Virus record (IMG/VR): IMGVR_UViG_3300045922_000840
Coordinates: 1 to 32,101 of that record
DNA: 32,101 bases
Origin: a virus
Reading direction: 5' to 3' (one strand)
Shown: piece by piece, positions 1,163 to 28,603 of the stretch
How the letters are laid out: the number at the start of each line of letters is the position of its first letter
Numbering within the stretch: position 1 is the first letter of the stretch
Notes under the pieces: generated by a model
Seen by the model: only the letters and a program-made list of their open reading frames with translations
Database searches by the model: none
Told to the model about the DNA's origin: nothing
Made by a program: the position numbers and the translations under genes

Positions 1163-2749
1163 GTGCGTCAACCTCACCGAGCGCGCCAAGGGGGTGTCGT
1201 GGCCGAACGCCTTAAGCAAAGGAACGAAGATCGCGGCGAGGACTCCTCGGCCGTGTCGAGGCGGAATCGGCCTGATTCGCTGAACAGGACCGCGCGCGCA
1301 AAGGGGGTAAGCGTCAGTTTCGCCAGGAACGGCACGGATGTCGATGCTGTCAAGTCAATCGCCGACGCATACCGCGCCGAACTCGGCTTTCATACGCGGC
1401 AATCTTTCCTGGAGAGCCTTTCTCGCCGAGAACTGCTCGTCGCAAGAGTGGAAGGCCGCATCGTCGGGTTCTTGCGCTTTCACCATACCCGCGCGGGCCA
1501 CACAACGCTGCAAGAGATTGCCATAAGCGCTGCGGCGTGCCGCCGAGGTGTCGGCCGGCGCCTAGTCAGCGAGTTGCTCAATGAATGCCGGAGTCGGGGT
1601 TCACATGTCATCCGGTTGAGCTGTCCAGTCGAGCTTCCGGCGAACCGGTTCTACGCGAGTCTTGGCTTTCGCCGGTCGCATCGCCGAAGCAAGGCGGGGA
1701 AATCCCGCCCGCTTTATCAATGGGAGCTGCCTCTGCTGACAGCCCGGGCGCTCGCGTTTGTGGCCTCGCTCACCAATGCCGCGAACGACCTGCGAAACCT
1801 TATTCCCCTGTGGGAGAAGGAAGGGCCAGGCCCGCGCCCGTTTGAGCACTGCATCGTCACGCCGCTGTTCGTCGAGCCGCGTACGCTCTCCTACGTGCGC
1901 CACATGCGGGAGAGATGGGGCGTTCATATCTGGTTTGACTCCGGCGGGTTCTTTGTCCAGCAGGGCAAAATCCGCTACGAGGATCTCTTTGCGAGGCTGC
2001 TGGCCTTCTACCGGGAACACGATTGGGCGACCGCCTATGTCCTCCCCGATTACGTGCCCACGTCGAAGAACAGCCCCGCAGAGGTGGAAGAGCGGGTGCG
2101 AGTAACCGCGGCTGAAGGGGCGAAGTTCCAGAAGCGGCTGCCCGAGGCGATCCGATCCAGGACGCTCGGCGTTCTCCAGGGGCATGATCCACAACACCTG
2201 CGCCTTTGCCTGGAGAGTTACACTGCCGCCGGAGTACGGCGACTCGGATTTGGCAGTTTCGATACAGGCGGCGGCAATGGCGAAATCAACCTGCTGACGC
2301 GGGAGGCGACGCTTCGGCTGGACGCCGTTCGGGAACTGCTGGGCGAAGCGAACGACGCCGCCCCATTCGACGCGGAAATGGACCTGCACCTCTTCGGCGT
2401 CGGCTCGCCCAATCTCGTCGCCCGGTTCGCCGGGTATGGCGCCAGCAGCTTCGACAGTTCAGGGTGGATGCGGACGGCCGGGTATGGGAACGTATACCTG
2501 CCCTTCCAGGGGCGGCGCAACATTACGCACGGCGCTTCCGCCGTGACATGCGGTTCTGGTCTTTCCGCGCGCGAGTTCTACGCACTCTGCGAGCAGACCG
2601 GACACGCCTGCCCTTTTTGCGCCGACTATCGCCGGCTCCAGACAAACCGCTACGCCCGGATGTGGCATAACGCGCTCGTCTTCGGCGAGATGACTCGCGC
2701 CATCAACGCCCGGTTTGCGCCGCTTGAGCAAGGAGGCGAGGATGGTTAG
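1163..2749 (+). CDS. GNAT acetyltransferase fused to DpdA-like transglycosylase
   Basis: Two domains in 528 residues. Residues about 48-190 form a GNAT N-acetyltransferase: an acceptor-side segment ending VGFLRFHH, an EIAIS strand, then the acetyl-CoA loop CRRGVGRRL near 126-134 and the late NRFYASLGF motif. Residues about 215-520 look like a tRNA-guanine transglycosylase (TGT) fold: DSGGF at 259-263 (general-base Asp in TGT), GFGSF at 362, HLFGVGSP at 409-416, FDSSGWMRTAGYG at 430-442 with D431 in the place of the nucleophilic Asp, and a zinc site CPFC 483-486 with H502 and either C463 or C476. TGTs swap guanine for a 7-deazapurine; the DpdA branch does this in DNA. The GNAT part could acylate an amine on the base or a partner, which is inference. 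GTG 1163 gives the longest frame; GTG 1199 behind AAGGGGG is an alternative. It overlaps the next gene by 8 bases. Confidence 0.8.
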   Translation: MRQPHRARQGGVVAERLKQRNEDRGEDSSAVSRRNRPDSLNRTARAKGVSVSFARNGTDVDAVKSIADAYRAELGFHTRQSFLESLSRRELLVARVEGRIVGFLRFHHTRAGHTTLQEIAISAAACRRGVGRRLVSELLNECRSRGSHVIRLSCPVELPANRFYASLGFRRSHRRSKAGKSRPLYQWELPLLTARALAFVASLTNAANDLRNLIPLWEKEGPGPRPFEHCIVTPLFVEPRTLSYVRHMRERWGVHIWFDSGGFFVQQGKIRYEDLFARLLAFYREHDWATAYVLPDYVPTSKNSPAEVEERVRVTAAEGAKFQKRLPEAIRSRTLGVLQGHDPQHLRLCLESYTAAGVRRLGFGSFDTGGGNGEINLLTREATLRLDAVRELLGEANDAAPFDAEMDLHLFGVGSPNLVARFAGYGASSFDSSGWMRTAGYGNVYLPFQGRRNITHGASAVTCGSGLSAREFYALCEQTGHACPFCADYRRLQTNRYARMWHNALVFGEMTRAINARFAPLEQGGEDG

Positions 2750-3593
2750 GTCAGCGGCGCACACGTTCCACACCCGGCATGACTTCACCCCCGAACTTGG
2801 GTGGGCGGCGTTTCAGCTCGTCTACGAGATCGGCCGTGCCGGCGCCGATTCAGCCGCTCTCAAAGACGCCGCGCGAGCCACTACGTCGCCGCTGGCCCGG
2901 CGGTCGGACCTGACCAAAGTGCTCGCCTCGCTGGAGGACTTGGGCCTGCTGGCCCGTGACGGCAAGGCGGTGGCCCTCACCGATTTTGGCCAGGCGCTCG
3001 CTGCCGGAGTCGGAGCGTATGAAACCGGCTTTCGGGCAGCGGTCCACTGCATCTACGCCTGGCAATGGCTCTGGGTAGGCGACCGAGAGCACGCAAGTCC
3101 GTCCTGGAGCTATCGGGAGGTTTGCCGCCATCTCTTGTCAAGTCCGCCGGCAGGAATCGCATCGGATGACTTGGTGCTGCGCGTGGTTGACGCCGCGAGC
3201 CTGTTCAACGCGCAGCGCGTGTCATTCAGCCGGTCGAGCGTGTCCGGCGTGGTGAACTGGCTCATGGCCCAGACGCCGCCGCTGGTCGGGCAAGTGGGCA
3301 AGAAGGTAGCACGGGTGCGGGGGCAGGCCCCAGGCCCGACTTCACTCCGGCTGAATCTGGCAGCCGCCTGTGCGCTCGAAGGAGGACGCGTCAGCCTCGA
3401 TGGCGATGTCCTGAATTTGCTTGCCGAAAGCATGCTGATTCCTCCGGATGAGTTATGGTTGCCGGTGGTCGAGTATGCTCGTGACTCGGTCGAATTCAAA
3501 TTCATCCCCGGCGGGCGAGGAACGGTAGTTTTCGACCACGGAGAAGACGCGTTCGTTCGCTGGGTGTCAAACGCGGCGGGAAGGAGGGGTTGA
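2742..3593 (+). CDS. Winged-helix protein, DpdG-like by position and size
   Basis: A 283-residue soluble protein. I chose ATG 2742 because AGGAGG at 2731-2736 sits 5 bases ahead of it. The start lies inside the end of the transglycosylase gene (ATGGTTAG overlap), so translation is probably coupled. Residues about 14-85 look like a winged helix: helical segments, then LASLEDLGLLARDG as recognition helix and wing, then VALTDFGQALAAG. The rest is helical with no catalytic motif I can name. A protein of this size next to a large ATPase matches the DpdG-DpdH pair of 7-deazapurine DNA modification clusters, and that match is the basis of the label; I cannot confirm homology. It may bind DNA or act as an adaptor for the ATPase. 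Confidence 0.6.
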   Translation: MVRSAAHTFHTRHDFTPELGWAAFQLVYEIGRAGADSAALKDAARATTSPLARRSDLTKVLASLEDLGLLARDGKAVALTDFGQALAAGVGAYETGFRAAVHCIYAWQWLWVGDREHASPSWSYREVCRHLLSSPPAGIASDDLVLRVVDAASLFNAQRVSFSRSSVSGVVNWLMAQTPPLVGQVGKKVARVRGQAPGPTSLRLNLAAACALEGGRVSLDGDVLNLLAESMLIPPDELWLPVVEYARDSVEFKFIPGGRGTVVFDHGEDAFVRWVSNAAGRRG

Positions 3594-6500
3594 TGGCGGT
3601 TCGAGCAAAGCCGGCCGATGGCCCGAAACAAGACGACCAGGCGATACGCCTTCTTCCGATCTCGGACACGGTGAACGGAAGCCACGCGCGGGAGCGCCCC
3701 GCCGACGTGCTCGCGCACTACGAGCAGCTGTCTGGTCGGCTCTGGTTGCCTCCTCAACTGGACGCCTTCGGCAAGGCCATTTTCGACGGCATTGGCGGGG
3801 GCCGAACGAAATGGGCCAGCCTCACCGGACCCTACGGTTTCGGCAAGACGGCGGCTGGCATTCTCCTTTGGCAGCAAGCGCGCGAGGCGGACTTTCTCGC
3901 AATTCCGCCGCTTTCCTGCACGAACTACGACGAATTCGCCGCAGGTGTGGCGGCGCTCGCAGCCGCACAATTGCCGAAAGAGAAGAACCGAATCGAGAAG
4001 CTGTACGGGGAGATATGGGCCGGCGGCATCGAGCGGATCGCCAAGGCAGAGGCGGAGCGACACGACATCCCGGTGCGGAAACTTCGGAAGATCCTGGAGG
4101 CGCAGCTTGAGCACGGCCGGTGGGCTCCCGATGGGCACTCCCACCGCTTGGTCGAGTTTTTGGCCCGCTTGGGCCAACTTTCCGGCCGCTCGTCGCGTGG
4201 CCTGGTTGTCATCGTCGATGAACTCCAGCAACTCCTCGGCCCACTGGACGTGAGTTCGTTAAGCCGCCTGCGAGAGCTTGTCTGGGGCATGCGGACCGAA
4301 CAATCCCCATGCGCGGTGATTCTTACGCTGGATACGCAGCTCGAAGCTCGCCTCGCCCATTGGGCAGCCGACCTGCTCCATCGCGTTCGGGAGGACAGCC
4401 CGGCGCTTCAGATGACTGCGGTGTTCAACCGTGATTTCCCGGTCTGGCTGTGGGAGCGCCTTTCCACTCCCAACGGGAGGTCCGGCAAGACGCTTCCGGC
4501 CTCGGCAGTGAGCAGTGAGGTGCTGGAGTCGCTGGGGCAGTTCGTCGAGCGGCCGGACCTCGCCAACGGGCCGCGCACGGTGGTTGACGTGTTCAACCGT
4601 GCCGTGGATCACTTCCGCGAAACCGGAAAAAGCTATGGCGTTCTCGATTTAGTGGATGACATTCACCAGGGCCGGTTCAAGTTTTTCGGAGAGGGTTCAC
4701 CGGTTCAACGAATCCTGACGCAACTGCTCTCCGATCCCTGGATTGACGCAGACACAGTGCGGCGGTCCCTAGTGCGAACGCTGGCCGCCTACCCGCGAGG
4801 CTGCCCCGACGCGGTGGTCCATGCCCATGTCGGCAACGGCCGAAAACTCAAGGCTGCTCGCGACCAGCTGTTCGGGCCGCTGCTGGTCGAGCTTCCGGGT
4901 GGGCTTGCCCTGGAGCAGCTCCAGCAAGTCTCGCGCGGCGGCAGTTTCTGGGAGAACGCGCTCGCGCGATGCTGGGACTCCATGCCTGGGGTGTCCGCGC
5001 TCGCCGAGATGGTGCCGGAGCTGGTCACGCGGGTTCTATTGCCCAGGCTGTTTACGGGGCTCGGCCGTCCTGCCGGCGAATGGGCGGTGCTCGAAAGCGA
5101 TGCCCGCGCGGCGGTCTCTGGCTTCCAGATTCTCCGGGGCAGTTTCGACCCGGCCTTTCCAGGCCGCGAGGTTGCGGTGTGGGTCGGCCAGCGGGAGCCG
5201 GCGCAGTGGCCCGAGGACGTTGACCTGTGCATCGGCTTCGTCTGTGGGCCGGAAACCGATCCGAGCACGCAACCTTCGGCCGAAGTCGCGAACCTGGAAG
5301 GCACGCCGCGCATCGTCTTTAAGATGCCGGCACTGGTCCCGATGGACTCAGCAGTGCCCGAGGAGATCGCGCGCTATCAGAAGTACATCCAGCCGGAACC
5401 TTTGCGGCCCGCTTATGTGCTCCTGGGGCTGCGAGAGCTTCAGGGATTGGACGAGGCGCCGCCGAGTGGCTCGGCATCGAGCAATGGGCGGGCGCGTAAG
5501 CACCTGCACGCGGCTGATACCATATCGACCGCCGAGCGGAGGAAACTGGCTGGCTTCCAAGAGCTTTGCCTTGACCACCTGATGCGGTTTCTCCTTCAAG
5601 GGGAGATCGACGCGGGCGTAGGCCGGCCCGTACGCCAACGTGGTCCCGAACTCCTTCGCGCCCTTTTTTCGGTCGCATGCCGAAAGCGATTCCCTTCCTA
5701 TCAGACGTTGATTACCGTTCGCCACTGGAAGGCATTGATGGATGTCTATCGCACCGCGCTCGCCAGCGAGCGCCTGAGTCTGGCTCAGCGTCGCGGCCAG
5801 GAGGACGTGACCATGCCCAAGGCGGACGCCTACCGCCTGTTCTTCAACCAGTTGAGTACCGCAGCTGGTGACAGCTTCGTCCGATCCCTGGGCCATCTCG
5901 TCAAGGCGGCGGCCAAGGGCGATGCCTGGTCGTTTCGTTTCCCGCTTCATCCGGGCGAGTCGTCGCTCTTGGAGTATCTTCGCGGCTGTGCGCGTTCCCG
6001 GCCTGTGCCTTTGTCTGCGGCGAGGGAATACCTGCGGCATAAGGGATACGTCGAGGAGGAGGCAACCCAGATCGTCTCCCTGCTGGAAGCGCGGGGGCTT
6101 CTGACCATGGACCGGGGCCGCAGCGTGCGGCTGGTGGCCGGACACGCAGGTATGGAGGAGGAGGCCAGGAAGCGGGTCTTCGCAGCCCGCGATCAACTGG
6201 CTCGTCTTCTCGTTGCGCCACGCCTGCCCGAACCCTTGCCCACACGGGCAAGCGAACTGGCTCGCTTGGCGGACGAATTGGAGTGCCAGCTTCAAGATAA
6301 GATCGAAGCCTGCCGAACCATTCGGAAGGGCCAGCTAGACGACGTGCGTGCCGCCATCGGCAGCGTCCGAGCCATCGCGCTACCAGCAGAGTGGTTGAAC
6401 ACGGGCTTGAGTACGCATCTTGCGGGCATCGGAGACACGCTCGGGCGCACACAGACAAAGCTTGTCGATTCGCTGCGCAAGGAGGCGGAGTCTATCCAGG

Positions 6501-7327
6501 CGGAGTTGGCCGCGTCGGACGATGATCGCTTTGGCTGGGCGGTGCGGTGGGTGCGCAGGTGCGATTCGGTGAATGCTCAACTGGAAAAGCTGAGAAGCCG
6601 GGTTGCCGAATTTGAGGTCCAGTCCGCGGCGTTGTCAAGCTGGGTGCCGGTTAACCAGGAGCTGTTCGCCGTGACGACGCTCTGCTCGAAGATTAGTACC
6701 ACCGATCCTGCTCCGGTTCACGAACTGGCTGAGCTCCTGGCTCGAACGCGGGAACGGTTCTCCAGAGAATCCTGGGAGCCGCTTGGTGCGGCACCGGAGT
6801 TCAGGGGCGAGCTACGGTCAATTAGCCAGGCACTCCAGGGGCTTATGTACAGCCAAGCCCGCGCTTACTTCGCCGAAGTCGAGATTCTGCGGCAACGGTT
6901 CGCCCCGCTTCTCCCGAATACGCCTGCACCGACGTTCGAGGAAGAGCATGGAGGGCGGAGGAAGGCTCGCAGCGGCTACGATGCGTTCGCGGCGCTTTAC
7001 CGTTGGGCCTTGAGCGGCTTCAACGATGCATTCGCACGGGCTAAACGGTTGAAGAACCGCAGACAACCTTGGACGGACCCACGCAAAAAAGGCCGAAGCT
7101 GGAACGAACTTTCCGGCAGCCTTGAGTGCTTGCTTGAGAGGAAGGCATCAACCCAGACCATCGAGTACGTGTTGAAGGTAGGTGAGCAATTAAGTGAACT
7201 CCTGGGGGGGTTCGCTGGGATTGGCACTTGCGTGTTCGACACTCCGGAAGTCCCTCCGGACTTCGACTTGTTGCGAGAACGGTTTCTCCGGGGTGAAGTG
7301 GTGATCCGTATTGAGCCAAAGCAATAG
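3593..7327 (+). CDS. Large P-loop ATPase, DpdH/BrxC-PglY type
   Basis: A 1244-residue protein starting at ATG 3593, which overlaps the previous stop as TGATG and follows AAGGAGGGG. A Walker A motif GPYGFGKT is at about residues 79-86 and a Walker B strand VVIVDEL at about 205-211, so the N-terminal third is an AAA+/P-loop NTPase. Residues about 850-1150 are charged and helical, with likely coiled coils (for example LARLADELECQLQDKIEA). Length, early Walker motifs and the long helical C-terminus resemble BrxC/PglY ATPases of BREX and the DpdH ATPase of Dpd systems. The winged-helix partner upstream favours DpdH. By analogy it would form a nucleotide-controlled scaffold that recruits the modification or restriction enzymes. 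Which family it belongs to needs a profile search. Confidence 0.72.
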   Translation: MAVRAKPADGPKQDDQAIRLLPISDTVNGSHARERPADVLAHYEQLSGRLWLPPQLDAFGKAIFDGIGGGRTKWASLTGPYGFGKTAAGILLWQQAREADFLAIPPLSCTNYDEFAAGVAALAAAQLPKEKNRIEKLYGEIWAGGIERIAKAEAERHDIPVRKLRKILEAQLEHGRWAPDGHSHRLVEFLARLGQLSGRSSRGLVVIVDELQQLLGPLDVSSLSRLRELVWGMRTEQSPCAVILTLDTQLEARLAHWAADLLHRVREDSPALQMTAVFNRDFPVWLWERLSTPNGRSGKTLPASAVSSEVLESLGQFVERPDLANGPRTVVDVFNRAVDHFRETGKSYGVLDLVDDIHQGRFKFFGEGSPVQRILTQLLSDPWIDADTVRRSLVRTLAAYPRGCPDAVVHAHVGNGRKLKAARDQLFGPLLVELPGGLALEQLQQVSRGGSFWENALARCWDSMPGVSALAEMVPELVTRVLLPRLFTGLGRPAGEWAVLESDARAAVSGFQILRGSFDPAFPGREVAVWVGQREPAQWPEDVDLCIGFVCGPETDPSTQPSAEVANLEGTPRIVFKMPALVPMDSAVPEEIARYQKYIQPEPLRPAYVLLGLRELQGLDEAPPSGSASSNGRARKHLHAADTISTAERRKLAGFQELCLDHLMRFLLQGEIDAGVGRPVRQRGPELLRALFSVACRKRFPSYQTLITVRHWKALMDVYRTALASERLSLAQRRGQEDVTMPKADAYRLFFNQLSTAAGDSFVRSLGHLVKAAAKGDAWSFRFPLHPGESSLLEYLRGCARSRPVPLSAAREYLRHKGYVEEEATQIVSLLEARGLLTMDRGRSVRLVAGHAGMEEEARKRVFAARDQLARLLVAPRLPEPLPTRASELARLADELECQLQDKIEACRTIRKGQLDDVRAAIGSVRAIALPAEWLNTGLSTHLAGIGDTLGRTQTKLVDSLRKEAESIQAELAASDDDRFGWAVRWVRRCDSVNAQLEKLRSRVAEFEVQSAALSSWVPVNQELFAVTTLCSKISTTDPAPVHELAELLARTRERFSRESWEPLGAAPEFRGELRSISQALQGLMYSQARAYFAEVEILRQRFAPLLPNTPAPTFEEEHGGRRKARSGYDAFAALYRWALSGFNDAFARAKRLKNRRQPWTDPRKKGRSWNELSGSLECLLERKASTQTIEYVLKVGEQLSELLGGFAGIGTCVFDTPEVPPDFDLLRERFLRGEVVIRIEPKQ

Positions 7328-7359
7328 CCAGACTAGTGAAGAGACCGAAGGACGCTGGC

Positions 7360-9351
7360 ATGATCCGTGTAAGTGGTACGACCGAAGGACCAGAAGCGAA
7401 TGCGGCGCGGGACTTGTGCCGCATTGTGCTTGCTTCCTGGCCCTGGCTAGAGGACGACTCCCAGGCGGCCATCGAGATTGTGGCTGGAGTCCAGTGCCAC
7501 GGGCAATCCACCCGTGACCTCGACATCGTTCTGCTTGCGACCCTTCCTACCCGCGCCCGGTACGTTCCATTCCTCAGCTTCCAGCGCCGGGGCGATCGCC
7601 AGTGGATGAAGCCTACTGAGGTGCGAGTTGCGAGCCTTTGTATCATTTTCGAAGTCAAAGACAATGACCCGGCGGATGTGCGTTTCGAGGGCACCAGGCT
7701 GGAGGTACGCTACCGCCACGATGGCGTCGAGCACTGGCACGGTGCATCGGAACAGAGCTTCAAGCAAGTGTTCGCCCTGCGGAATTACCTCGCTTCGCAC
7801 CATTTGGACGTTCCTTTCATCACAAACCTGATTTGGCTGCGCCAGGTTCCCAATGCGCAGCTGCCGCACCGCCCGCACAACCTTCTCGGCGGCAATCCGA
7901 CATGGGAGTTGGTGCTGAATATCGTCGGCCAGCTCGATCCCCCGCACGAGCATGATGGGGAATGGACCCTGGAAGCCTGGCGGGAAAGGGTCCAGCCGAA
8001 CTTCCAGTCCATCGTCCGGCTCCTGACGCTGCGCCTTCAGCCAACGCGGTTAGACAACGTACGCATGGCGCGGCTCGTCCGCTCAGCCCTCGATGCCGAT
8101 TGGTTGCGTGATCTCGGGGTCAAGCAGCTCATCTTCCGTGGCCGCGGCGGCACCGGGAAAACGATGATCCTCCTTCAACTCGCATGGAGGCTCTACGAGG
8201 AGAAGGGTGCCCGCGTTCTGGTGCTGACCTACAACAAGGCTCTCATGGCCGACCTGCGGCGCCTGCTCACCTTCGTGGGCGTGGGAGATGTGGCGGCCGC
8301 TCGCAGCATCCAGGTGCAGACGGCCCACTCCTTCCTCGGTTCGGCCTTGCGCGAATTGGGCCTGCTTGGGCCGGATGAGGACTTGCTTGCGCGCTATGAC
8401 GCGCTGAAGAGCGAAGGGCTCGCGCTCATACGCGGAGGCGGGCTGAAGGCTGAGGACGTGGAAAAGTTGCTTCGCGAGCGCCCGGAGGCGTTCGGTTGGG
8501 ACTTCCTGCTGATCGACGAAGGGCAGGATTGGCCGGAGGACGAACGCGATTTGCTAAGATTTTTGTACCCGGCGCGGCAGTTCGTGATCGCGGACGGCAT
8601 GGACCAGTTGGTCCGATCGGAGTCAGCCTGCGACTGGAAAAAAGGACTCGCGAGTAACGAAGTACAGGTGATCGCGCTCGCGCGGTGTCTGCGGATGAAG
8701 GCTGCGCTGGCGCAGTTTGCTAACGCGCTGGCAGAGGAGCTGGGCTTCGGAGGATGGCATGTCGAGGCGAATCAGGATGCCCCCGGAGGTCGGGTGATTG
8801 TGGTCGAGGGCGATTACTTTGCATCCCGTGAACTGCACGATCGGTTGATGCGGGCAAACGAGGCGGATGGTAACCAACCGGTGGACACACTGGTCTGCGT
8901 CCCGCCGGCCCTTGTCGTTCGGGAGGACGGGAGGGGAATACGCTCCGTGCCAGCAGAGAAGCTCGCGGGCTGGGGGCATGTTGTCTGGGATGGTGTCTCG
9001 ACAGAAGTGCGCGACAGTTACGCCACCTCCACACAGCAGATGCGGGTTGTTCAGTACGACTCTTGCCGCGGGTTGGAGGGCTGGATCGTCATCGCGCTCG
9101 GGATCGATGAGTTCTTCCGATACAAGGATCATTCCTGGCAACCGGCGAGCGGCCAAGAGACGCCGTATGGCGACGATCCCGCCGCCAGGAGTCGATTTGC
9201 TTCGCGCTGGTTGATGATCCCCCTGTCGCGGGCGGTCGATACGTTGGTGTTGGAAGTGGGGGCCGGACGGTCGCGGCTGAAGGAGGCGCTTCAGCATGTC
9301 GCGGATCGGCATCCTGACTTCGTGGAATGGTACAAGACTGCTGGGCCGTGA
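7360..9351 (+). CDS. NERD-like nuclease fused to UvrD-type helicase
   Basis: A 663-residue protein. ATG 7360 follows GAAGGA with an 8-base gap; GTG 7336 would add 8 residues. The N-terminal ~150 residues resemble a NERD/PD-(D/E)xK nuclease: an Asp in the strand LDIVLL (about D55), then FEVKDN with E98 and K100 as the E-x-K pair. A superfamily 1 helicase follows: Walker A GRGGTGKT at 261-268, motif Ia VLVLTYNKAL, motif II DEGQD at 386-390, YDSCRGLEG as motif V and RAVDTLVLEV near the end as motif VI. The role would be to unwind and cut DNA, possibly the nuclease of the system since no other nuclease gene is in the operon. It lies 32 bases after the ATPase gene. Confidence 0.78.
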   Translation: MIRVSGTTEGPEANAARDLCRIVLASWPWLEDDSQAAIEIVAGVQCHGQSTRDLDIVLLATLPTRARYVPFLSFQRRGDRQWMKPTEVRVASLCIIFEVKDNDPADVRFEGTRLEVRYRHDGVEHWHGASEQSFKQVFALRNYLASHHLDVPFITNLIWLRQVPNAQLPHRPHNLLGGNPTWELVLNIVGQLDPPHEHDGEWTLEAWRERVQPNFQSIVRLLTLRLQPTRLDNVRMARLVRSALDADWLRDLGVKQLIFRGRGGTGKTMILLQLAWRLYEEKGARVLVLTYNKALMADLRRLLTFVGVGDVAAARSIQVQTAHSFLGSALRELGLLGPDEDLLARYDALKSEGLALIRGGGLKAEDVEKLLRERPEAFGWDFLLIDEGQDWPEDERDLLRFLYPARQFVIADGMDQLVRSESACDWKKGLASNEVQVIALARCLRMKAALAQFANALAEELGFGGWHVEANQDAPGGRVIVVEGDYFASRELHDRLMRANEADGNQPVDTLVCVPPALVVREDGRGIRSVPAEKLAGWGHVVWDGVSTEVRDSYATSTQQMRVVQYDSCRGLEGWIVIALGIDEFFRYKDHSWQPASGQETPYGDDPAARSRFASRWLMIPLSRAVDTLVLEVGAGRSRLKEALQHVADRHPDFVEWYKTAGP

Positions 9352-9423
9352 TACCCGGGTAACTCACGCAGCGGTCAAGGAGGATGCAGGCGTTCCGGGC
9401 GGCCCAAGAGAGAGGGTTCGCCA

Positions 9424-11199
9424 ATGCAGACACAACATTCGGCACAGGGCTGCGGTAACGACTACGATCGCTGGAATCGCGCGTTGGCACGCTGGGCGGT
9501 TCACGGCTCCTCAGAGGGCACACCAATCTATCTTTCGGTGGACGAGCCGGCGCTTCTGACTGTAGCACGTCTCTTCGCTGGGCTTTCATGTGCGACTGTT
9601 GAAGAAGCATGCAATGCGTTCCAGCATGCGCTCATTTCTCGGTGCGTGACGGGCACGGAAGCTCGCGTTGACCTGAGCACGTTGGGTGGGACGGACAGCG
9701 ATGGCATTCCTCGGTCGGTCGGCTTTCTCGCCGGGATGGTTTTCGCTGCGTACGAAATGCGGGACGACGAGAATGCCGATGATAGCACCTACTTTTACCG
9801 TCTCCGCGAATTCTTAGGAGTCAGTGCCGCGCCGGGAAATGTGCGCCCGCGAGGCATGGTCATTCCAGTCGGAAGGCCGGCCCCGGAAGAAGCTCTCTGG
9901 CAGCAATGGAATTGCTGGCTGGTTCAGCAAGGGTTTCAGCCTACCGCGTGCCAAGGGAACGGGCTGAAAAACAAGTATTCCAACTACGCCATCTCGCAAG
10001 CGCTTCTGCGGAAGGGCGATAAAGTGCGGCTCGCCCGCTGGTTCAGGGAGCCGAAACAAATCGAGGCGCTAGGCCACCACTCATGCGACCGTGATATTCT
10101 TGCCGTTCGCTTGCCTGAGCTAGGGCGGACCATCAGTTCGGCACGCCTACGCCAACTTCTCCAGGATATGGAGGATGACCGCCGTTTCCAGGCAATCATT
10201 GACGCGGCTTCAGAAGTGTATGACTCAATCGACTGGGACCAACCTGCGAACGTCTCCGATGCGGACATCATCGGCCCTCGCCGGTTGCGGGCGGGGCTGT
10301 ATCGAACGGAAAACTTCATCACGGGAGCCATTGAATACTGGCTGTATCCGAAGATGCCGCGTCGTTGGCAGGGCGGAGCCTTGGCCGTCGAACACGCCGG
10401 GTGCAGCCACAGACTCTGGGAGCAGCGCCCAGGCTGGTTCATGCCTCTTTGGCCCGTCACGCTGAACAGCGAACAGCGGTATCCGATCACTGGAGCCGAC
10501 GATATCACCGAACTGATTCTGCCGAACCGGGACTTCTGGATTCTGGTGCATGATCCGGATGACGAGGCGTCGAGCATCCTGGCCAGCTGGTCCGTGCCGG
10601 CACCCGGCCAAACCTTCCTGCTCCTTTGCCAAGAGAAGCACGCGCGGCAACTGCAAGTGCTCCGCGAGGAGCAACTCCTTAGCTGGGACGAGATTGTTCA
10701 ATTCCCGCAGGGCGACCGTCTCTGGCTGGAGTATCGCGAGTGCCAGGTCGAGTCCTCCCGCTGGTCGCGGATGCTCCCGCAGCCAGGCTGCGAGGACCTG
10801 CTCGACGCCCTGCGTCCGGTGACGCGAGTAAACGTGGTTCTCGAAGGCGGATTGCGAGTCCCGGGGCAGCCGGTATGGATCGAGGGGCACCAGCCCGACC
10901 TGAAGCTATACCAGTTCGGGGGAGCGGTGCAGTTGCGGATTGTGGAAGCACACGCGCCAGATCAGTCCGTCTTCGAGGGACCGGCGGTAGTTAACGACCG
11001 GGTTTCCCTCCCGCAGCTTGCACCGGGAGAGTACGTCATCGAAGCCCGTGGTGCGGGCAGCGTCGCTGTCCGCAGGCTTCGGATTACCTCATGGAGCCAA
11101 CTGGAGGCCCATCCGCCTACCCGCGACTATTCGATACCGGTCAACGGCTTCTGCCTGCGAGGCGCATCCTTGCTCCCGGTCAGCGGAGAAAGGAGGTAA
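9424..11199 (+). CDS. Unrecognised 591-residue operon protein
   Basis: I do not recognise this family. ATG 9424 follows GAGAGGG after a 72-base gap, the largest in the operon. The protein is soluble, with no signal peptide, P-loop or clear metal motif. The first ~270 residues are mixed helical; residues ~280-480 are rich in Trp and aromatics (for example IEYWLYPKMPRRW and NRDFWILVHD). The last ~100 look like a beta-sandwich, with VPGQPVWIEG and LAPGEYVIEARG. It is separated from the next gene by only 3 bases, so the two products probably act together. The tail could be a binding module for DNA or a partner. In Dpd clusters DpdD is an uncharacterised protein of comparable size, but I see no sequence basis to equate them. 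Confidence 0.6.
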   Translation: MQTQHSAQGCGNDYDRWNRALARWAVHGSSEGTPIYLSVDEPALLTVARLFAGLSCATVEEACNAFQHALISRCVTGTEARVDLSTLGGTDSDGIPRSVGFLAGMVFAAYEMRDDENADDSTYFYRLREFLGVSAAPGNVRPRGMVIPVGRPAPEEALWQQWNCWLVQQGFQPTACQGNGLKNKYSNYAISQALLRKGDKVRLARWFREPKQIEALGHHSCDRDILAVRLPELGRTISSARLRQLLQDMEDDRRFQAIIDAASEVYDSIDWDQPANVSDADIIGPRRLRAGLYRTENFITGAIEYWLYPKMPRRWQGGALAVEHAGCSHRLWEQRPGWFMPLWPVTLNSEQRYPITGADDITELILPNRDFWILVHDPDDEASSILASWSVPAPGQTFLLLCQEKHARQLQVLREEQLLSWDEIVQFPQGDRLWLEYRECQVESSRWSRMLPQPGCEDLLDALRPVTRVNVVLEGGLRVPGQPVWIEGHQPDLKLYQFGGAVQLRIVEAHAPDQSVFEGPAVVNDRVSLPQLAPGEYVIEARGAGSVAVRRLRITSWSQLEAHPPTRDYSIPVNGFCLRGASLLPVSGERR

Positions 11200-11202
11200 G
11201 CG

Positions 11203-12579
11203 ATGGCCCGGCAATTCTTCAGCATCCAAGCCGTGGGAACACCGAATGACGTGCTCCGTTCAATCCAGTCGAAGGTGCGCGCGCTGCAGTGCGGGCACAT
11301 CGTGCCGGTCGTGTATTTCGAGAAAAAGGCACGGGGTGGGCAGTTCTACGTCTTCCTTGGGGTCGAAGGAAACCCCGGCGGGAAAGTGCCGGACGAAGTG
11401 AACGAACTCTGCGATCGCGTCCGGTATGAAAAAGGCGTCACGTCGGGAGGGTTCGTCGGACAACTCCTCGGCCCCTGTTCCTTCGAGCAAATCCGAAGCT
11501 CGCTTGATCCGCAGGAGTTCGATACTTCCGGCAGTGACCGCATTCCCTACTGTTCCCGCTGGGTACACGATCCGGGAGACCTCATCGATCTGCTCGACGT
11601 GGGCGTTTCAGCTGCTCCCGATCCCGAGCTTACGGCCCGATTTGATCATTTGCTAACTTGGCTTTCCAGCGCCGGGGAAGGGCGCTGGGAGACTTTCCTT
11701 CGCGCCTGTCAGACCCTCGGCGTCGCCGACGACGCCACTGCGACCCGGAGCGTCTTTCGCCGCCTCTTGCTTCTCGGGCACGTGGAAGCCTCGCCCGATG
11801 GTCGCGAATGGGTGATCTGCCCGCCGGTGTTCGTCCGTCCCCCGAACCGCCCGACTCAATGCTTCTGGTGTGGCCAGCGCACCGATCGGTGGCTGGGGCG
11901 CCTTCGAGAAATCAGCGAGATCGTCCCCGAACATCAGCCTGGGAGCCTGGCTCCCTCCCGAGTCACCATCGAAGTCAGCGATCCCCTCCGAACGGCGATT
12001 GCAGCGGATGCAGAAGCCTCGCGGTTCGAGTGGCAGGAGCAACCACTTTCCGATGTGCTTGCCGCTCACCTGCCCGATCTCGGCGGCTGGCAAAGATCGC
12101 TTCAACCGATCGTTGGCCTCACCAACCCTCGCACTGTCGAGCGCTGGGAGGGCCAAGCATTCGTGGAGGATACCTCGTTCTACATTCGCGATGGGCGGTA
12201 TCACGGACAGTCAGGGTTTTATCGCGTCACCCGCGGCGAGGGGCGAGGCCAGTCGAAGTTGATGTTTTACTTCGATGAAGAGGGCCAGCAGCTGCTGCGA
12301 GGAGACTGGTATGGCCTGCGGTTTCTCGCGCTGCGGAAGGCGGGGCATCGCTGCGAGGCGCTTTGGGAGGGGCAAGACGGAAACGGAAGTACGCTCGTTC
12401 TTCGGGCCAGCGAGCGCTGGCCCATGATCTACGAACGGACGCTCGTACTCGCCTCCGGATTGCTGCCGGAACATTCGTCGGGCAGCAAGCTGCTCCGCTA
12501 CCGGGACGTTCCTCTTTCGACGGCAAAGGCCCTCGCCGGAAAGCTCGGGGTCGAACTGGAGGTCCACAACAATGCATGA
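11203..12579 (+). CDS. Unrecognised 458-residue protein with CxxC and winged-helix-like part
   Basis: ATG 11203 has an excellent site, AGGAGGT at 11191-11197, and the gene starts 3 bases after the previous stop. I do not recognise the family. Residues about 160-205 could be a winged helix ([11 protein letters not shown], then [18 protein letters not shown]). It is followed by CFWC at 220-223, half of a possible zinc site; further Cys lie at 30, 70, 92, 117, 169 and 206. The C-terminal half is beta-rich with many aromatics ([20 protein letters not shown]). Its stop overlaps the start of the giant helicase gene by 8 bases, so it is likely a partner or loader of that helicase, the slot DpdI holds before DpdJ. 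That comparison is positional only. Confidence 0.6.
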
Positions 12580-15500
12580 TCTTATCGGGACTGCCGAGCG
12601 CATCCGGCGCGTGTACCGCCTCTATGTGGAGAGTGCGTTTCCGGTACGCTCGGACGCGCTGAGCCAGGAGCGCGACCAGCTCCTCGCCCGCAGCGGAATG
12701 CCGGGAGACCCGGGGACGCTGGCCCAGCCGCCCGTTCTCGAAACAGTCCCGGTGTATCAGCGCACTCAGATGAATCTCCAGCAGGCTAGCCAGTTGCTCG
12801 TGGCCCAGCATGGGCTGCCTGCGGCATACGGGGACCTTCAGTTCCTCGGCCAGCAACTCTTCCAGCTGGCCGACCGCCTCTACGATCATCAATGGCAGAG
12901 TCTGGAGGCGGTTCTTGCGCGGGGTAATGACCTGGTTGTTACGACCGGAACCGGATCGGGCAAAACTGAATGCTTTCTATTGCCTCTCTTCGCCGAACTC
13001 GCGAGTGATTCTGCCTCCTGGCCGGCCTGCCCGCCACCAGCCGACCCTCTTGCCCGCCGCTGGTGGGAACGGGATGGGGCACGGGTTGGGCAATGGGCGC
13101 ACTCACAGCGACCCCATGCGATGCGAGCGATGATTCTTTACCCCCTTAATGCGCTGGTGGAAGACCAGCTTCGTCGCTTGCGAAAAACGCTCGATTCACC
13201 TACGGTCCACAACTGGCTTGACATCCAACGCGGCCGGAACCGCATCCTCTTCGGCCGCTATACGGGACACACTCCCGTATCTGGCCATCCGAACCAGTCA
13301 GCGGCCGTGCGACGGTTGCGCGACCGGCTGCGGGACATGGGCCAGGAGCACGCGGACATCCTCCAGCAGCTTAATGATCCGAGTTTATCAGCAGATGAGC
13401 GCGATCTGCTAGAGCGGGAGGTTCGTTACTATTTCCCCAACATGGACGGTGGGGAGATGTGGTCGCGTTGGGACATGCAGGAGACACCGCCCGACATTCT
13501 CATTACGAACTACTGCATGCTCAACATCATGTTGATGCGGAGCATCGAAGCCCCGATCTTCACCCGAACTCGAGACTGGCTTGCTGCGGACCCGTATCGG
13601 CGGGGACAGTCGGCGAAGCCGACCCGTCGGTTCTTCCTGATTGTGGACGAATTGCATGCTTACCGCGGAACACCGGGAACCGAAGTCGCGTACATCCTGC
13701 GGCTGCTGATCGAACGGTTGGGCCTTGACATCGACTCTCGTCAACTCGTCATTCTTTCCACCTCGGCCAGCGTTGATGAAAACGACCCGCGCTCGCGCGA
13801 CTTCTTGCGCCAGTTCTTTGGGCGGGATCGATTCGAGATCGTAAGCCGCCCCCAGGTTCCTCCTTCTGCCGGTGCCCGCTCGCTTCTTGTCTCCTTTGCC
13901 GGTCCCTTCGCCGCGTTCGCCAATGCGGTCCAGGCCGATCCATTCACCCCAATGTGGGGGCCTGACCCGAATACCCCGGCCAACCAGCAGGCCATGACTA
14001 CCCTGAGTGCGGCACTCATGTATGCAGGTACAGAGACGCACCCGCAGCGCATGCTGGGCGAGGCGCTGGTACAGCAGCAGGCTCACGAAGCGCTTCGGGA
14101 TGCCTGCGCCGCATGCCACGGCGGGCAAGTGCGTCCGACGGAAGTGCCTCGGCTGGATGCGATCTTGTTCCCAGGGGCGGCGCCGACTGGGCAGATGTCA
14201 CCCTCCATGCGGGGGCTGCTGCTTGCCCTGGCGATGTCGGAGCTGCCAGCCACGCGATCCGCGCCACAGCCGGTTCGAGGCCACCTGTTCTTGCACAACC
14301 TACAAAATCTGTGGATTTGTGCGAACCCTCAATGTAACGATTCCCGCTGTGCCACGACGCTACGCCAGCAGGAGTCGGCGGCCGGTCGGCCGGTTTCCGC
14401 AGGCGCGCTTCACGCTCGTCATCAGTTGGCGTGCTCGTGTGGGGGCCGCGTTCTTGACCTCATCGTCTGCGAGGTGTGTGGAGAAGTGTACCTCGGCGGG
14501 TTCCGGGCTAGGCAACAACTTCATGGTCGCGGCACTATCGAAATCCTGACGGCAGACCAGCCGAATCTCGAAGACATTCCGGACCGCATTACACCTGGTA
14601 AAACCTACGAACAGTACGCGGTCTTTTGGCCCCTGCCGGAGCAGCCGGCCTGGGTGACGCAGCCACAAGACCTTCAGTACGACATGAACCGCATTACAAG
14701 GCGCTGGGTCCAGGCTAAGCTCAATGTCTATTCGGGCGTCCTTCTCCGCGAGGCGACGCCACCGACGCAGGATGAGGTACCGGGGTGGCTCTATGTGATT
14801 GCCGGCAACCACCCGAATGAGTCGCCCATGCCGGGGAAATGTCCGCGATGCGATGCGGACTACCGCCAGAAAAATATCCCGACTCCTCTACGCAATCACC
14901 GCACGGGTTTCCAAAAGGCGTGCCAGGTGATTGCCAGCGCCTTGTGCCGAGAAATGCCGGTCATGCGCGGCCGGAAGCCGGCCCGGAAGCTCGTCATCTT
15001 CTCGGACAGCCGGCAAGATGCCGCGAAGCTCGCCGCAGGCATGGAGCGCGACCACTTCCGCGACATGGTGCGGCTCGCGCTCCTGGGGGCGCTCAATACA
15101 TATTGGCGATCCTTCGAGGCGTTTCTCCGGACGCGACTCCCGCTGTTTCCGGCTGCGATTCCAGCACTTCAAGCGTCTCACCCCGCCGTCGCCGCGGTTG
15201 GGATGCAGCCGCAGCAACCCGATGATCCCCGCTTGGCGGCGGATTTCCAGGCTGCTTACCCACGGATGGTCCTTGAGTTCATGAACCGCCTCATGAATGT
15301 CCCGCCCGCTGATCCGCCCGCGCGCCAGCAGCTTGAGGAATTGCTGGCCCGCTACCCCGATCGCGTGCCTCTCCCGGAACTTCGCCGTATCGTCCATCAA
15401 ATCCTGCTACAGCTAGGCATCCCCTCGGGTGGTCCTGTCTTTCGGCTGCTTGGCTACTGGGTCAATAATGAGCGGTCACCCTGGTATGGCTGCTACGACT

Positions 15501-18358
15501 GGGGAACTCCGGTTCCGCGCGAGCAGACGGGCCTCCCACCCCAGGCAACGCGCCTGCTTGGCAACATCGACGATGCGATCATGGCCGAGATCATGTACGC
15601 CCTTTTCCCCCATCGTGCGCGCACCCTGGAAGGACTGGCCCAGGGGACCGTGACGTACCAGCCGGTCGGCGTTCCGGCGCCCATAATCCGCGAAGCAACT
15701 CTGACCGTGATACGGCAGCTCGGCATCCGGCGTTCCTACCGGCACGCCGACTTCTTCCGGCCAGGAAACAATGACACGCTTCCGCCATTCGTGCAGGAAT
15801 ACCTCGCAAACCTCGGCATCGCGCCGGTGAACATCCAGCAACAGCTACTCCAGTCGGGCGCTGGTATTCCGGCCCTTTCCCGAATCGCGCTTGATCCCGA
15901 CCGACTCTCGCTCTCCCCGCCACCTCCGGAAGTCACCTTGCCGGATGGGCGTCGTGCCCGACCTGGCTGGCGGTGTCCGACGTGCCAGACCTTCTATTTG
16001 CAGCCGGCCGGTGGTATTTGCCCGGACTGCGGCGATCCGCTTCAGAACGACTATTCGAGCCAGACGTTCGATTACTACGTCTACCTTTCCGAGCAATCCG
16101 GCCAGCCATTCCGGTTCCGAAGCGAAGAACTCACCGGCCAGACCGATTTTGCTGACCGGCCGAGGCGACAGCGGTGGTTCCAGGAAGTGTTCGTCCAGGG
16201 GGAGGAACGCCGGCCACTCGGCGTCGATCTCTTAAGCGTCACGACGACAATGGAGGCTGGCGTTGACATCGGCTCGCTGCAAGCCGTGATGATGTCCAAC
16301 ATGCCGCCCCGGCGCTTCAACTACCAGCAGCGCGTGGGCCGAGCGGGCCGGCGCGGCGCAGGACTGTCTCTTGCCGTCACTTTTTGCCGCGGGCGGAGTC
16401 ATGACGACTTCTACTACGCCCGGACGGAACAGATGACGGGCGATCCTCCTCCGCTTCCCTATGTCGATTTGCGGCGGGAGTCGATCCTTCAGCGCGTCCT
16501 CATCAAGGAAGTCCTGCGGCTTGCCTTCCTGGATGTGAACCCTGCGGCCCTCGCCGGCACGGGGAACACCCTTCTTGACAGCGTGCATGGGGAGTTTGGT
16601 CCGGCTGCTTCCTGGCCGAACGTTGCGCAGGATGTGGCGAATTGGTTGAACGACCCAGCACACCTGGCGGCGATCCGCCGGGTTATTGATGTCCTCCGCG
16701 TGCAGACTCAGTGGCAGGGAACCACTCCTGCCGCCCAAACATTCTGTCAGCAGATGCTCGCGTTCCTCCAGAACGATCTCGTGCCGCGCATTACCGCGGT
16801 CGTAAACGATCCGCGGTACACTCAAGACGCGCTCAGCGAGCGGCTGGCGAACGCGGGTCTGCTTCCGATGTTTGGTTTTCCCACGCGCGTCCGGCTCCTC
16901 TACACGCAATGGCCGTACCGAGGAAACCCTTGGCCACCGGAACACGGTACCGTGGACCGGGACCTCGACATTGCGATCAGCCAGTTCGCGCCCGGCTCCC
17001 AGACTGTGAAGGACAAGGCGGTCCATAAAGCGTGTGGCGTCGTGGAAGCGTACCCTCAGGGCAACGGGGTCGCGTTCAACGATGGTCTCTTCCCGCCTCT
17101 ACCAGGCGGCAACCCGGCGCCTGTCGGAATTTGTGGGTACTGTCAGGCAGTGGACATACTTCCCGCAATGCCGAGCGCAGCACCTGGGGGTGTCGTGCCT
17201 CAACCAGTCCTTTGCCAAGTCTGTCAACGTCAGGAGATGCGGCCTCTTGACGCCCGCGAGCCAAAAGGATTCTTTACAGACCTTGATCCGGAGGACTTTG
17301 AGGGAACCTTTGAGTGGACAGCCTGTTCCACCCGCCCCACGCTCAACATCGGGACCCAACCGACCCAAACCCTTAACGTCGGAAATGGAATCGTCGGCAC
17401 GTTGACTGAAACCGACATCACGTCGGTGAACGACAACGGTGGCCAGGGAGGCTTTGACTTCCAAGCCGCCATCGTGGACGGCCGGAACATCGGGGGTGCC
17501 TATGCAGCGCTGGCCCAAAACGCGCGGCGGGTGAGCATGAGCGGCCCTCCCTTCCGAATTGCCTTGCTTTCCCGGAGGCGAACGGATGCTCTATTGGTTG
17601 ACATGGCGCAGTGGCCACAAGGTGTGAGCGCCGATCCGACGACGGTCGCTGGGCGGGCGGCATGGTATTCCTTGGCATTCTTCCTTCGGGTCGCTGCTGC
17701 GGCAGAACTCGACGTGGACACACTGGAACTGGACGCCGGCTTCCGAACATTCGGCCCTGCCGGGCAGCCACAAGCCCAAGCGTTCTTATGCGACAAGCTG
17801 GAGAACGGCGCCGGCTACTGCCGCTGGCTCGCCGAGCCGGCGCATTTCACTCAGCTTCTCAACCAGGCCGACCCCGCGCAACCCGGCTCAATCGCCGCAC
17901 GGTGGCTCCTTCCTGGGCACGCAGGCGAGTGCGATACCTCCTGCAACTTGTGCCTGCGGGATTTCTATAACCTTCCCTACCACGGACTGCTCGACTGGAG
18001 ACTGGCCTTGGACATGGGCCGGTTGTTGCGATCCGCAACCGTGACCATCGATCTCACGACTCTGTGGCCGACGACCGCAAATCCTTGGGACCGGCTGCTT
18101 GCCGGCACCGGCGCTCCAGTGCCCGCGCTCCTGCAACGCCTCGGCTACGGGCCGGCGCAGTTGTTTGGTTCCCTACGAGGCTACGTTCATGCTAATCCGC
18201 AGCGCCGCGTCATTTTGATCGAATCCCACCCCCTATGGACCGATCAACACCCGACGTTCATCGCTGCCAGCGGGATTGCGCTCCAGCACCATCCAGGGTT
18301 CAACGTGCGCCCCCTTGATCCATTTCTTACTATCCGGCGTCCGGCGGAGTATGTCTGA
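12572..18358 (+). CDS. Giant DEAH helicase with zinc clusters and DUF1998-like end
   Basis: A 1928-residue superfamily 2 helicase; ATG 12572 follows GGAGGT. Motif I is TGTGSGKT at 125-132, motif II DELH at about 359-362, and motifs V and VI ([22 protein letters not shown]) are near 1225-1260, so about 700 residues separate the two RecA lobes. That insert carries Cys pairs: CANPQC, CSC, CEVC, then CPRC; CPTC and CPDC precede lobe 2. Later CGYC...CQVC and a C-terminal CDTSC..CL followed by [10 protein letters not shown] resemble the DUF1998 cysteine signature of MrfB and DISARM DrmB. Helicases of this kind (DpdJ, DrmA/DrmB, MrfAB) track or remodel DNA in defence or repair. It is last in the operon and 8 bases overlapped with its neighbour. 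The exact family is open. Confidence 0.8.
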
Positions 18359-18661: not shown

Positions 18662-19495
18662 TTAACCACGTAACAGCCACAGCGTCCAGTGCTCCTGCGG
18701 CTGCGACAGGATCGTGTCGGCATCGGCCGGCACGACCTCTCCCTCGTAGTTGATGGTGCGGAGAAGGTAGCCGGCGCGTTCGACCTGGTGCAGAAGGTTG
18801 ACGGCTTGCGGCGGGTCGCGTTGCATGTGCAGTTCCAGGACGACGGCAGCGTGCGGGAAGCGACGTAGGGTTTCCTGCATGCCTTCCCAGACCAGGGCCT
18901 CCGCGCCCTCGGCGTCGATCTTCACCAGGTCGAGCCGCGGCCAGTCGGCACAAAGGCGGTCGAGGGTGATCGCTGGCACTTGGACCGTGCCGCAGCGGTG
19001 GGCGTAGGCCCAGCGCTCCAGCGAACTCGTGGCGAAATCGCCGTCGTGCAGGACGAAGTCCACGGTGCGGTCGTCGAGGTTGCCGATGACTTTCGGGCAG
19101 ATTTCGACGCCGTGGTGGAAGCCGTTGAGCGCCAGGTTCTGCGGCAGGTACGTCCCAGCCAGAAGCGGGTTCGGCTCGCAGGCCACGACGCGGCCCTCGG
19201 CACCGCAGGCGGCAGCCATGAGCAGCGTGTAGTAGCCGTAGTTCGCGCCGACATCAACGCACCACATGCCGGGCCGGAGATGGCGGGCGACGGCCAAGGT
19301 GACCCAGGACTCCCAGAAGCCGTCCAGCACCAGGCGCGGCCCGAGCATCAGGTCGCGCGTGTCCACGAACGCCAGGAAGTCGCCGAGCAACCGGCATAGC
19401 AACCGGTGTTCGCCGTAGTAGACGCCGGCGGCCTTGCGGCGGCTGGCCTCTTCCAGCTCGCCCCGGCTGGACAGCGCGTGCGACGGCAGCGGCAT
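18662..19495 (-). CDS. FkbM-family methyltransferase
   Basis: A 277-residue S-adenosylmethionine-dependent methyltransferase. Motif I VDVGANYGYYT is at 80-90, the acidic end of strand 2 ACEPNP at 105-110, and the FkbM signature VKIDAEGAE at 191-199. FkbM enzymes usually O-methylate sugars or natural products. ATG 19495 was chosen because GGAGGG lies 6 bases ahead; a TTG at 19501 overlapping the previous stop is less likely. It follows the glycosyltransferase gene with a 2-base gap, so it may methylate the glycan which that enzyme builds, possibly on the virion. It is the last gene of the prophage operon in this direction. The family call is firm; the substrate is inference. Confidence 0.85.
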   Translation of the reverse strand: MPLPSHALSSRGELEEASRRKAAGVYYGEHRLLCRLLGDFLAFVDTRDLMLGPRLVLDGFWESWVTLAVARHLRPGMWCVDVGANYGYYTLLMAAACGAEGRVVACEPNPLLAGTYLPQNLALNGFHHGVEICPKVIGNLDDRTVDFVLHDGDFATSSLERWAYAHRCGTVQVPAITLDRLCADWPRLDLVKIDAEGAEALVWEGMQETLRRFPHAAVVLELHMQRDPPQAVNLLHQVERAGYLLRTINYEGEVVPADADTILSQPQEHWTLWLLRG

Positions 19496-19497
19496 GA

Positions 19498-20808
19498 TCA
19501 ACCCTCCATCGGAATGAACTCGATGGGCATCCGCTCATGTTCGAGCCATTGCCCGTGCCAGGAACCATCGCCGTTGCGCCGCAGATGACAGGTCGGCCGG
19601 TCCAGCCGGCCCAGCGTCAGGATCGCCCGGCCGCCATCGATGTTCACGTCCCAGCGCCGCTCGCACTCGGCCGCGCCTTCGCCCACCTTGGCCCCCCGCT
19701 CCAAGCGCATCAGCCGCTCGTCATGGCCGACGCGACGGTAGAGGAAGCGCCGTCCACAAAGCGTGGCAATGATCTCTTGTTCATCCGGCGTCGGGTCGGG
19801 GTTGTGCCAGAGGACGCCGTCCCAGCGCTTGCGCAGTTCGACCATGAGATTGAAACAGAGTTCCTCATTGGCCAGCGAGTTGTTGCGGCGGTTGCCGCCA
19901 CCGAGCTTCCACTTGTCTTGACAGCGGTGCTGGAAGACGATCCGGCCGTCGAAGTCGTATTGCACGATGGTGTGCTGGTTCCAGCCAGGCCCCTTGGGTG
20001 GCATGGCGTATTCAGTCCCCAGGAACCGCCAGGCGAGGTGGAAACACTCCTTATCGCCGTAGACGATGCGAAAGACGTAATCGGAATGCTCGGCGTACCA
20101 GAGGGCCATGCGGAGTTCACGCCAGCAGCGGGTCTTGTTGATCAAGTACTGGCCCGACTCGAAGGCAATCTCCCTCTGGGCCTCCGGCACCATCCAGTCC
20201 ATGCCGAAGATTTGCCAGACGTCGGGCTTCAACGTCCAGCAGGCGTAGTCGGGCCAGAAGATCGCGCCGTGTTCGCGGAACTGCGGCGTGTCGAACAGGT
20301 AGGTCACGTCCCGCACCGGGCCGTTGTCCGCGTCGAGGAACAGCACCTGGGCGAACGGCGAGTGGAGCGTCGAGTACGGCTTCAGCTCCCACCCGCACAG
20401 GATGCGGCAGGGGATGTCCTTCTCCAGCTTGCGGGCATCGACGCACTCGACGCCGAGCGGCTTGAGCAGCCGCTTCATGTACGGATCGCATTCGCCGTCG
20501 CCGAGATACCAGAGCTGGATCGGCAGCTCGCAGCCGAAGTGCCGGACCAGGTGGACGTTGACCCAGACGCTGGGGAAGTACTTCAGCCCGCCGCCGGCAA
20601 TGACGATGCCGCGCTCCTGGGCGTAGGCATGCCGGCCCGGCTGCAGGTTGTCGGCGAAGCGCCGGGCCATGACGCGGTGCGCCTCATTGACGTTGGGCCA
20701 GGACGCCCACCCGGACGGCCAGGGGCCGGGCGGGGCGTTCTCGATCAGATGGATCATCTCGTCCACGGTCATGTCTTGACGTGCTGAACCTGGATTCAGG
20801 TTTGCCAT
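19498..20808 (-). CDS. GT71/mannosyltransferase-like glycosyltransferase
   Basis: A 436-residue protein resembling the alpha-mannosyltransferase (MNN1/MNN2, GT71) group. It has a donor-binding start [18 protein letters not shown] near 68-85, LPIQLWYLG at 95-103, and the metal-binding DxD in FLDADN at 157-162, then an acceptor region with conserved aromatics. The last ~90 residues form a separate small beta-rich part. ATG 20808 follows AGGAGA with a 6-base gap. It lies between a Ser/Gly-rich gene and an FkbM methyltransferase gene in the prophage structural operon. A role in adding sugar to that Ser-rich protein is an inference from context. Sugar and acceptor cannot be read from the sequence. 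Confidence 0.72.
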
Positions 20809-20825
20809 TGGTTTTCTCCTGTCGT

Positions 20826-20847
20826 CGCGTTCCCGCGAGAACGCGGG
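20826..20847. promoter_or_regulatory. Two overlapping alternative hairpins between genes
   Basis: Two perfect inverted repeats share bases, so only one can form at a time: CGCGTTC 20826-20832 with GAACGCG 20839-20845, and CCCGCG 20832-20837 with CGCGGG 20842-20847 (4-base loop). They lie directly after the stop of the Ser/Gly-rich gene and before the ribosome binding site of the glycosyltransferase gene. There is no T-run. Possible roles are RNA stability or tuning of downstream translation. Confidence 0.4.
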
Positions 20848-23953: not shown

Positions 23954-23963
23954 CGATCATTCC

Positions 23964-25946: not shown

Positions 25947-25948
25947 TG

Positions 25949-26649: not shown

Positions 26650-26666
26650 CGAGGACTCCCGGTGAA

Positions 26667-27695: not shown

Positions 27696-27715
27696 GATGC
27701 TTCCTCCAAGTAAGA

Positions 27716-28156: not shown

Positions 28157-28168
28157 GAGCGTGTCTCC

Positions 28169-28600: not shown

Positions 28601-28603
28601 GCT

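Follow-up and report, generated by a model that had tools for sequence, protein, structure and literature searches.

An operon of a virus record joining a GNAT-transglycosylase cassette to Druantia type IV genes

The seven-gene operon of the complete IMG/VR virus record IMGVR_UViG_3300045922_000840 (32,101 bases, analyzed whole and called the window here) is better described as a hybrid of a BRC-type (BREX-Related Capture) modification cassette and Druantia type IV. Both halves are already known, and what is new is their stable union and the exchange of effectors around the cassette. The initial annotation had placed a DpdA/TGT-type modification enzyme in one operon with defense helicases, and had seen in it a mixture of BREX-like and other parts; both points are supported, with a BrxC-like ATPase found beside Druantia IV genes. 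Among the papers that could be searched, none combines Druantia with DpdA, or Druantia with a transglycosylase.

Operon architecture and gene identities

All seven open reading frames lie on the plus strand in a single direction (1163-18358), and their coordinates agree with the earlier count of four of six junctions that overlap or are 3 bases apart (-35, -4, +8, +72, +3 and -8 bases, from gene 1 to gene 7). The operon joins a cassette (genes 1-3) to Druantia type IV (genes 5-7), and gene 4 is an accessory. Four Poribacteria genomes keep this gene order minus gene 4, and an Acidobacteria genome carries genes 1-5 in the same order followed by DruE; the arrangement is therefore not a product of chance. 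The other half of the window (18662-31951, minus strand) is filled by tailed-phage late genes, including a tape-measure protein (phrog_8462, E 8e-45) and a capsid-protease (phrog_4523, E 2e-75), on account of which we read the operon as either prophage cargo or sited at a prophage border. No integrase or attachment site was identified in the window. An FkbM-type methyltransferase, a mannosyltransferase and a trypsin-like protease are found among the late genes, and a 45-residue helix-turn-helix-like ORF (ALARYVGFSRARVTQVLRRLEAG; 806-943) upstream of the operon may be a regulator or what is left of a recombinase.

Gene 1 (1163-2749) encodes the GNAT-transglycosylase fusion described earlier, as confirmed by Pfam, PADLOC and model superposition. 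Its GNAT acetyltransferase domain spans approximately residues 48-190 (Pfam Acetyltransf_1, E 9.5e-13) and its TGT/DpdA-like transglycosylase domain approximately residues 193-528 (PADLOC DpdA, E 1e-6). A model with a mean pLDDT of 80 superposes over residues 193-528 on archaeosine TGT 1iq8 (Z 24.9), and the best PDB sequence relative of this part is the DNA preQ0 insertase DpdA (7ui4, E 1e-4), followed by archaeosine TGT; against the DpdA family NF041059 the protein scores 33 bits, below the curated cut-off of 200. In the archaeal TGT, D249 is the counterpart of D431, and C281, C284 and H307 are those of C483, C486 and H502, while D259 sits in a DSGG motif; the archaeal positions are nucleophile, general base and zinc ligands. 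D259, D431, H481, C483, C486 and H502 are invariant in 14 of 14 sequences, and the domain retains both catalytic Asp residues and the metal-binding residues typical of the archaeosine-TGT/DpdA lineage. The C-terminal, tRNA-binding half of archaeosine TGT is absent. Where gene 1 starts is uncertain, since its first 45 residues are modeled with low confidence and missing from relatives, and the GNAT motif in the window, CRRGVG, is one residue off the usual R/Q-x-x-G-x-G. GNAT and TGT are separate genes within the same clusters in Chloroflexi, and the tie between them is therefore independent of fusion.

The two partners of the transglycosylase are a winged-helix-like protein and a large ATPase. 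For gene 2 (2715-3593), the winged-helix assignment carries over in weakened form: the Pfam wHTH match is weak (E 0.006), and it is position that marks the protein as a cassette partner, with a winged-helix gene immediately 3' of TGT in all complete cassettes, where it occupies the DUF4007/BrxA position of BRC loci. Gene 3 (3590-7327) is the large ATPase anticipated from its sequence, with an AAA_16 match (E 2.5e-5) and intact, invariant Walker A (GPYGFGKT) and Walker B (VVIVDE) motifs, and its Haloplanus homolog scores above the Pfam BrxC_BrxD cut-off. Kinship with SspC was considered for this ATPase and rejected, the only match being a single weak P-loop one. Pfam DUF6079 and DUF4007 matched nothing in the window or in its HerA-bearing relatives, and a DUF6079 search in cyanobacteria gave zero matches, controls included, and so carries no information. 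A Chloroflexi locus (L068, 9771-14651) holds a second winged-helix/ATPase pair, without TGT, convergent with a full cassette.

Genes 5-7 are DruF-, DruL- and DruE-like and constitute Druantia type IV. Genes 5 and 6 had been regarded as unplaceable; PADLOC instead matches them to DruF (E 4e-18, 63 bits) and DruL4 (E 1e-18, 65 bits). The DruF match of gene 5 (9424-11199) covers residues 12-208 of 591, the N-terminal third only, and a family HMM links the protein to the DruF of at least 20 Druantia IV loci, with a full-length match to the DruF of other type IV loci. Folded in search of a nuclease, it gave a low-confidence model (pLDDT 67) with weak Ig-like matches alone. In gene 6 (11203-12579) the DruL4 match spans residues 148-454. 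Gene 7 (12572-18358), correctly seen from the outset as a giant DEAH helicase, carries DEAD and Helicase_C domains (Pfam) and is a DruE of the YprA family, matching PADLOC DruE4 over residues 2-1892 with 1481 bits, against 50 bits for DpdJ; it is 43-57% identical to DruE of Druantia IV in other phyla and matches the solved relative 9wae with E 1e-248. Neither DruM nor DruG found a PADLOC match among the seven operon proteins.

Between the two halves, gene 4 (7336-9351) encodes a PD-(D/E)XK/NERD-like nuclease domain and a UvrD-like helicase, upholding the NERD-UvrD reading of the initial annotation through PADLOC similarity to NERD+UvrD and a PD-(D/E)XK motif. This motif (D61/D63-E106-V-K108) is conserved in the homologs from the Acidobacteria locus (L005), L022 and L088, in an alignment that left out L023, which makes the protein a candidate nuclease. 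Homologs lie directly 3' of DruE on two alphaproteobacterial plasmids (L022, L023) and a cassette-free viral contig (L088), and the Acidobacteria locus has its homolog between the cassette and DruF. In Druantia I and II helicases, the C-terminal nuclease has been predicted to be inactive by Bell et al. (PMC12458937).

Recurrence of the cassette and choice of effector

The survey of gene order called for by the initial annotation finds the set elsewhere, in Poribacteria, Acidobacteria, Chloroflexi and Cyanobacteria. A tblastn search against plasmids returned two gene 1 relatives, one from Oscillatoria and one from Haloplanus. The cassette of the Oscillatoria plasmid adjoins DruE, DruL and DruF in opposite orientation; that of the Haloplanus plasmid adjoins queC, queE and queD and is followed by PglZ-like, HerA and GNAT genes. 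A scan of 84,980 genomes added 14 further loci, and phylum surveys others. Some cassette loci reside on plasmids among further defense genes. Scans of viral contigs with TGT and ATPase revealed no viral carrier besides the window, and a DruE scan of viral contigs found three carriers. One of these, a second viral record (L088, IMGVR_UViG_3300048834_001178), holds DruF-DruL-DruE followed by the NERD-UvrD homolog at 6523-17816, without a TGT cassette.

Cassette loci were sorted into effector classes by family HMMs on the flanks that were read. Fifteen pair the cassette with Druantia IV and no BRC effector: the window, Acidobacteria L005, Poribacteria L004, L056, L063 and L064, Chloroflexi L062 and L068, and Cyanobacteria L002, L007-L010, L013 and L015. 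Ten others (L003, L011, L012, L057-L060, L065-L067), two of which are truncated by contig ends (L012, L060), carry BrxB-like, PglZ-like and HerA genes and no Druantia, resembling the composition of BRC; PglZ and a STAND/BrxB NTPase occur together in L003, L011, L057-L059 and L065-L067, with PglZ identified through weak matches to NCBIfam (E 3e-4 and 4e-3). Both effector sets are present at one locus (L069/L070), so that BRC effectors are missing from 15 of the 16 Druantia IV-linked cassettes, and neither set was found in the flanks read of L006 and L017. Judged from these flanks, the choice between Druantia IV and BRC-type effectors is near-exclusive. Relative to the cassette, the Druantia genes are collinear in Poribacteria and Acidobacteria, whereas those of Chloroflexi and Cyanobacteria run divergently or convergently. 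Three cyanobacterial loci share a conserved three-gene set between cassette and DruE (L008, 16323-19759; L013, 16547-19808; L015, 16359-19642), whose members are an unknown protein, an AAA ATPase and a PRTase-CE, the last in L008.

Linkage was quantified in a by-phylum sample of 628 genomes (292 Cyanobacteria, 251 Chloroflexi and 85 Poribacteria), counting a locus as linked where a cassette lay within approximately 25 kb. With type IV DruE defined as scoring above 2000 bits, a cut-off chosen after the scores had been seen, a cassette is linked to 8 of 14 type IV loci, compared with 0 of 33 among the remaining DruE-like loci, the latter tallied by hand from tables (Fisher p 1e-5). By phylum, the linked fraction is 4/4 in Poribacteria, 2/2 in Chloroflexi and 2/8 in Cyanobacteria. 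Two of the eight linked genomes (G001, G008) were the centers of draws, picked for carrying the cassette, and without them the same formula gives 6/12 versus 0/33 (p ~1e-4). In the DruE tree the window clusters with full support with Acidobacteria and Poribacteria, all cassette-bearing; the TGT tree recovers the same groups in the same branching order, with weak support for the placement of the window (86/0), and requires a minimum of two effector changes. Seven Druantia IV loci lack the cassette, and the ten neighbors tested there include no modification enzyme; type IV DruE therefore seems able to do without the mark of the cassette. Other Druantia loci have a cytosine methyltransferase in place of the cassette.

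Relation to described defense systems

No complete known system matched: features of Dpd, BRC and BRIGADE are lacking, and the cassette lies outside published Druantia IV. The window shares a DruF-like protein, DruL and DruE with Druantia type IV in the same order (PMC8565338), with DruE matched end to end and DruF over its N-terminal third, whereas the published definition is without a GNAT-TGT/winged-helix/ATPase cassette. BRC, published in January 2026 (PMC12839542), resembles the window in its TGT and GNAT (sometimes fused) and probably in its winged-helix protein and BrxC-like ATPase. HerA/FtsK is stated to be universal in BRC; by contrast, the window has Druantia IV instead of HerA/FtsK, PglZ or a BrxB-like NTPase, and BRC membership was rejected as the HerA HMM, PglZ and BrxB match no ORF in the window. 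Supplementary-table neighbors aside, the main text of the BRC paper does not mention Druantia.

The "Dpd-like" label of the initial annotation has to be given up. Dpd likewise pairs a DpdA-like transglycosylase with a YprA-family helicase, but the window lacks DpdB-DpdF, DpdG, DpdH and DpdK, and its helicase is DruE rather than DpdJ. Membership was rejected by profile-profile comparison, in which genes 2 and 3 are unrelated to DpdG and DpdH (hhalign probability at most 0.5, against 96.9 for TGT versus DpdA as positive control); there was no NCBIfam match either. The nearest conceptual precedent is BRIGADE (PMC12458937, 2025), in which a deazaguanine pathway is tied to a YprA helicase related to ARMADA/Druantia. 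BRIGADE has been described only from halophilic archaea and has two YprA helicases and PLD or PD-(D/E)XK nucleases, whereas the window has one YprA-family helicase, no que gene and a PD-(D/E)XK-like motif in gene 4; DruF/DruL and the BrxC-like ATPase, present in the window, are not mentioned for BRIGADE, nor are TGT and GNAT mentioned in the text of that paper.

A proposed modification-gated reading of the operon and its alternatives

We consider it somewhat probable that the operon encodes a composite restriction-modification-like system, in which host DNA would carry a 7-deazaguanine mark and Druantia IV would attack DNA that lacks it. The host would supply preQ0, and the TGT domain would swap guanine in host DNA for this host-made 7-deazaguanine (preQ0 or a derivative), aided by the winged-helix protein and BrxC-like ATPase in choosing or remodeling the DNA. 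The fused GNAT may acylate the 7-deazaguanine or its precursor, and the Druantia IV effector (DruF, DruL and DruE, here with the PD-(D/E)XK-UvrD protein) would engage and degrade DNA without the mark. We infer DNA as the substrate, the chemistry of the mark, the target of the GNAT and the gating of Druantia by the mark. The proposal is supported by the intact TGT residues and fold, the missing tRNA-binding half, DpdA as nearest PDB relative, and que genes beside some cassettes: in Acidobacteria queD is directly upstream of GNAT-TGT and queC 9 kb away, and in Oscillatoria HE19RPO queD is 2.6 kb from the cassette. It is weakened in that, with Haloplanus, these are the only three cassette loci with que genes nearby, and in that the GNAT motif of the window deviates by one residue. 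Further support comes from the collinear operons, from the exclusivity of effectors (15 loci versus 10), from the linkage to type IV DruE, and from the methyltransferase at other Druantia loci together with a review that lists Druantia as modification-based (PMC12904381). According to the same review, Druad1 promotes phage DNA methylation, by which type I Druantia is evaded. The cassette-free Druantia IV loci of cyanobacteria argue against gating, and the proposal is also weakened by Druantia III, for which replication intermediates containing ssDNA, and not modification, are what is sensed and engaged (PMC13192584).

A broader form of this proposal, which we hold more tentatively, is a modular family wherein one GNAT-TGT/winged-helix/BrxC-like machine would write a new acylated 7-deazaguanine in DNA for interchangeable effectors (Druantia IV or PglZ-HerA), giving Druantia IV a modification-gated discrimination of self from non-self. 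The cassette-free loci, the opposite orientation of the two halves in cyanobacteria and the synergy with neighboring defenses documented for Druantia III would also suit a rather unlikely alternative, namely separable cooperating defenses in which a BRC-derived marking or sensing cassette acts in synergy with a self-sufficient, structure-recognizing Druantia IV, with no gating of DruE. The compact operons of the window, Poribacteria and Acidobacteria, whose genes are collinear and overlap, argue against such independence, as does the loss of BRC effectors from nearly all Druantia-linked cassettes.

Relatives of TGT act on tRNA, and the GNAT-TGT might accordingly use tRNA, a nucleotide or a protein, for instance in a signal or conjugation step, in place of DNA. 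Other defense systems have been reported to contain TGT- and QueC-like proteins. We regard a non-DNA substrate as improbable: the tRNA-binding C-terminal half is absent, the sequence is nearer to DpdA than to tRNA TGT, and the operon pairs it with DNA helicases and a winged-helix protein. Least plausible is a mere neighborhood in a defense island with no functional link, for although defense genes do cluster and some loci sit on plasmids with other defense genes, the cassette is linked specifically to DruE of type IV, does so across four named phyla, and elsewhere carries BRC-type effectors.

No explanation was found in the literature for how Druantia IV discriminates self from non-self, and a recurrent base-exchange partner, replacing the methyltransferase found beside other Druantia helicases, bears on this question. 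The modification-gated reading suggests that a modification cassette can swap its whole effector module, as in phosphorothioate systems, and raises the possibility that DNA contains an acylated deazaguanine base.

Two TGT relatives with neither winged helix nor ATPase occur in other contexts (L061, 14267-15415; L014, 9938-11068) and were left out of the cassette set; perhaps they belong to a different modification system.
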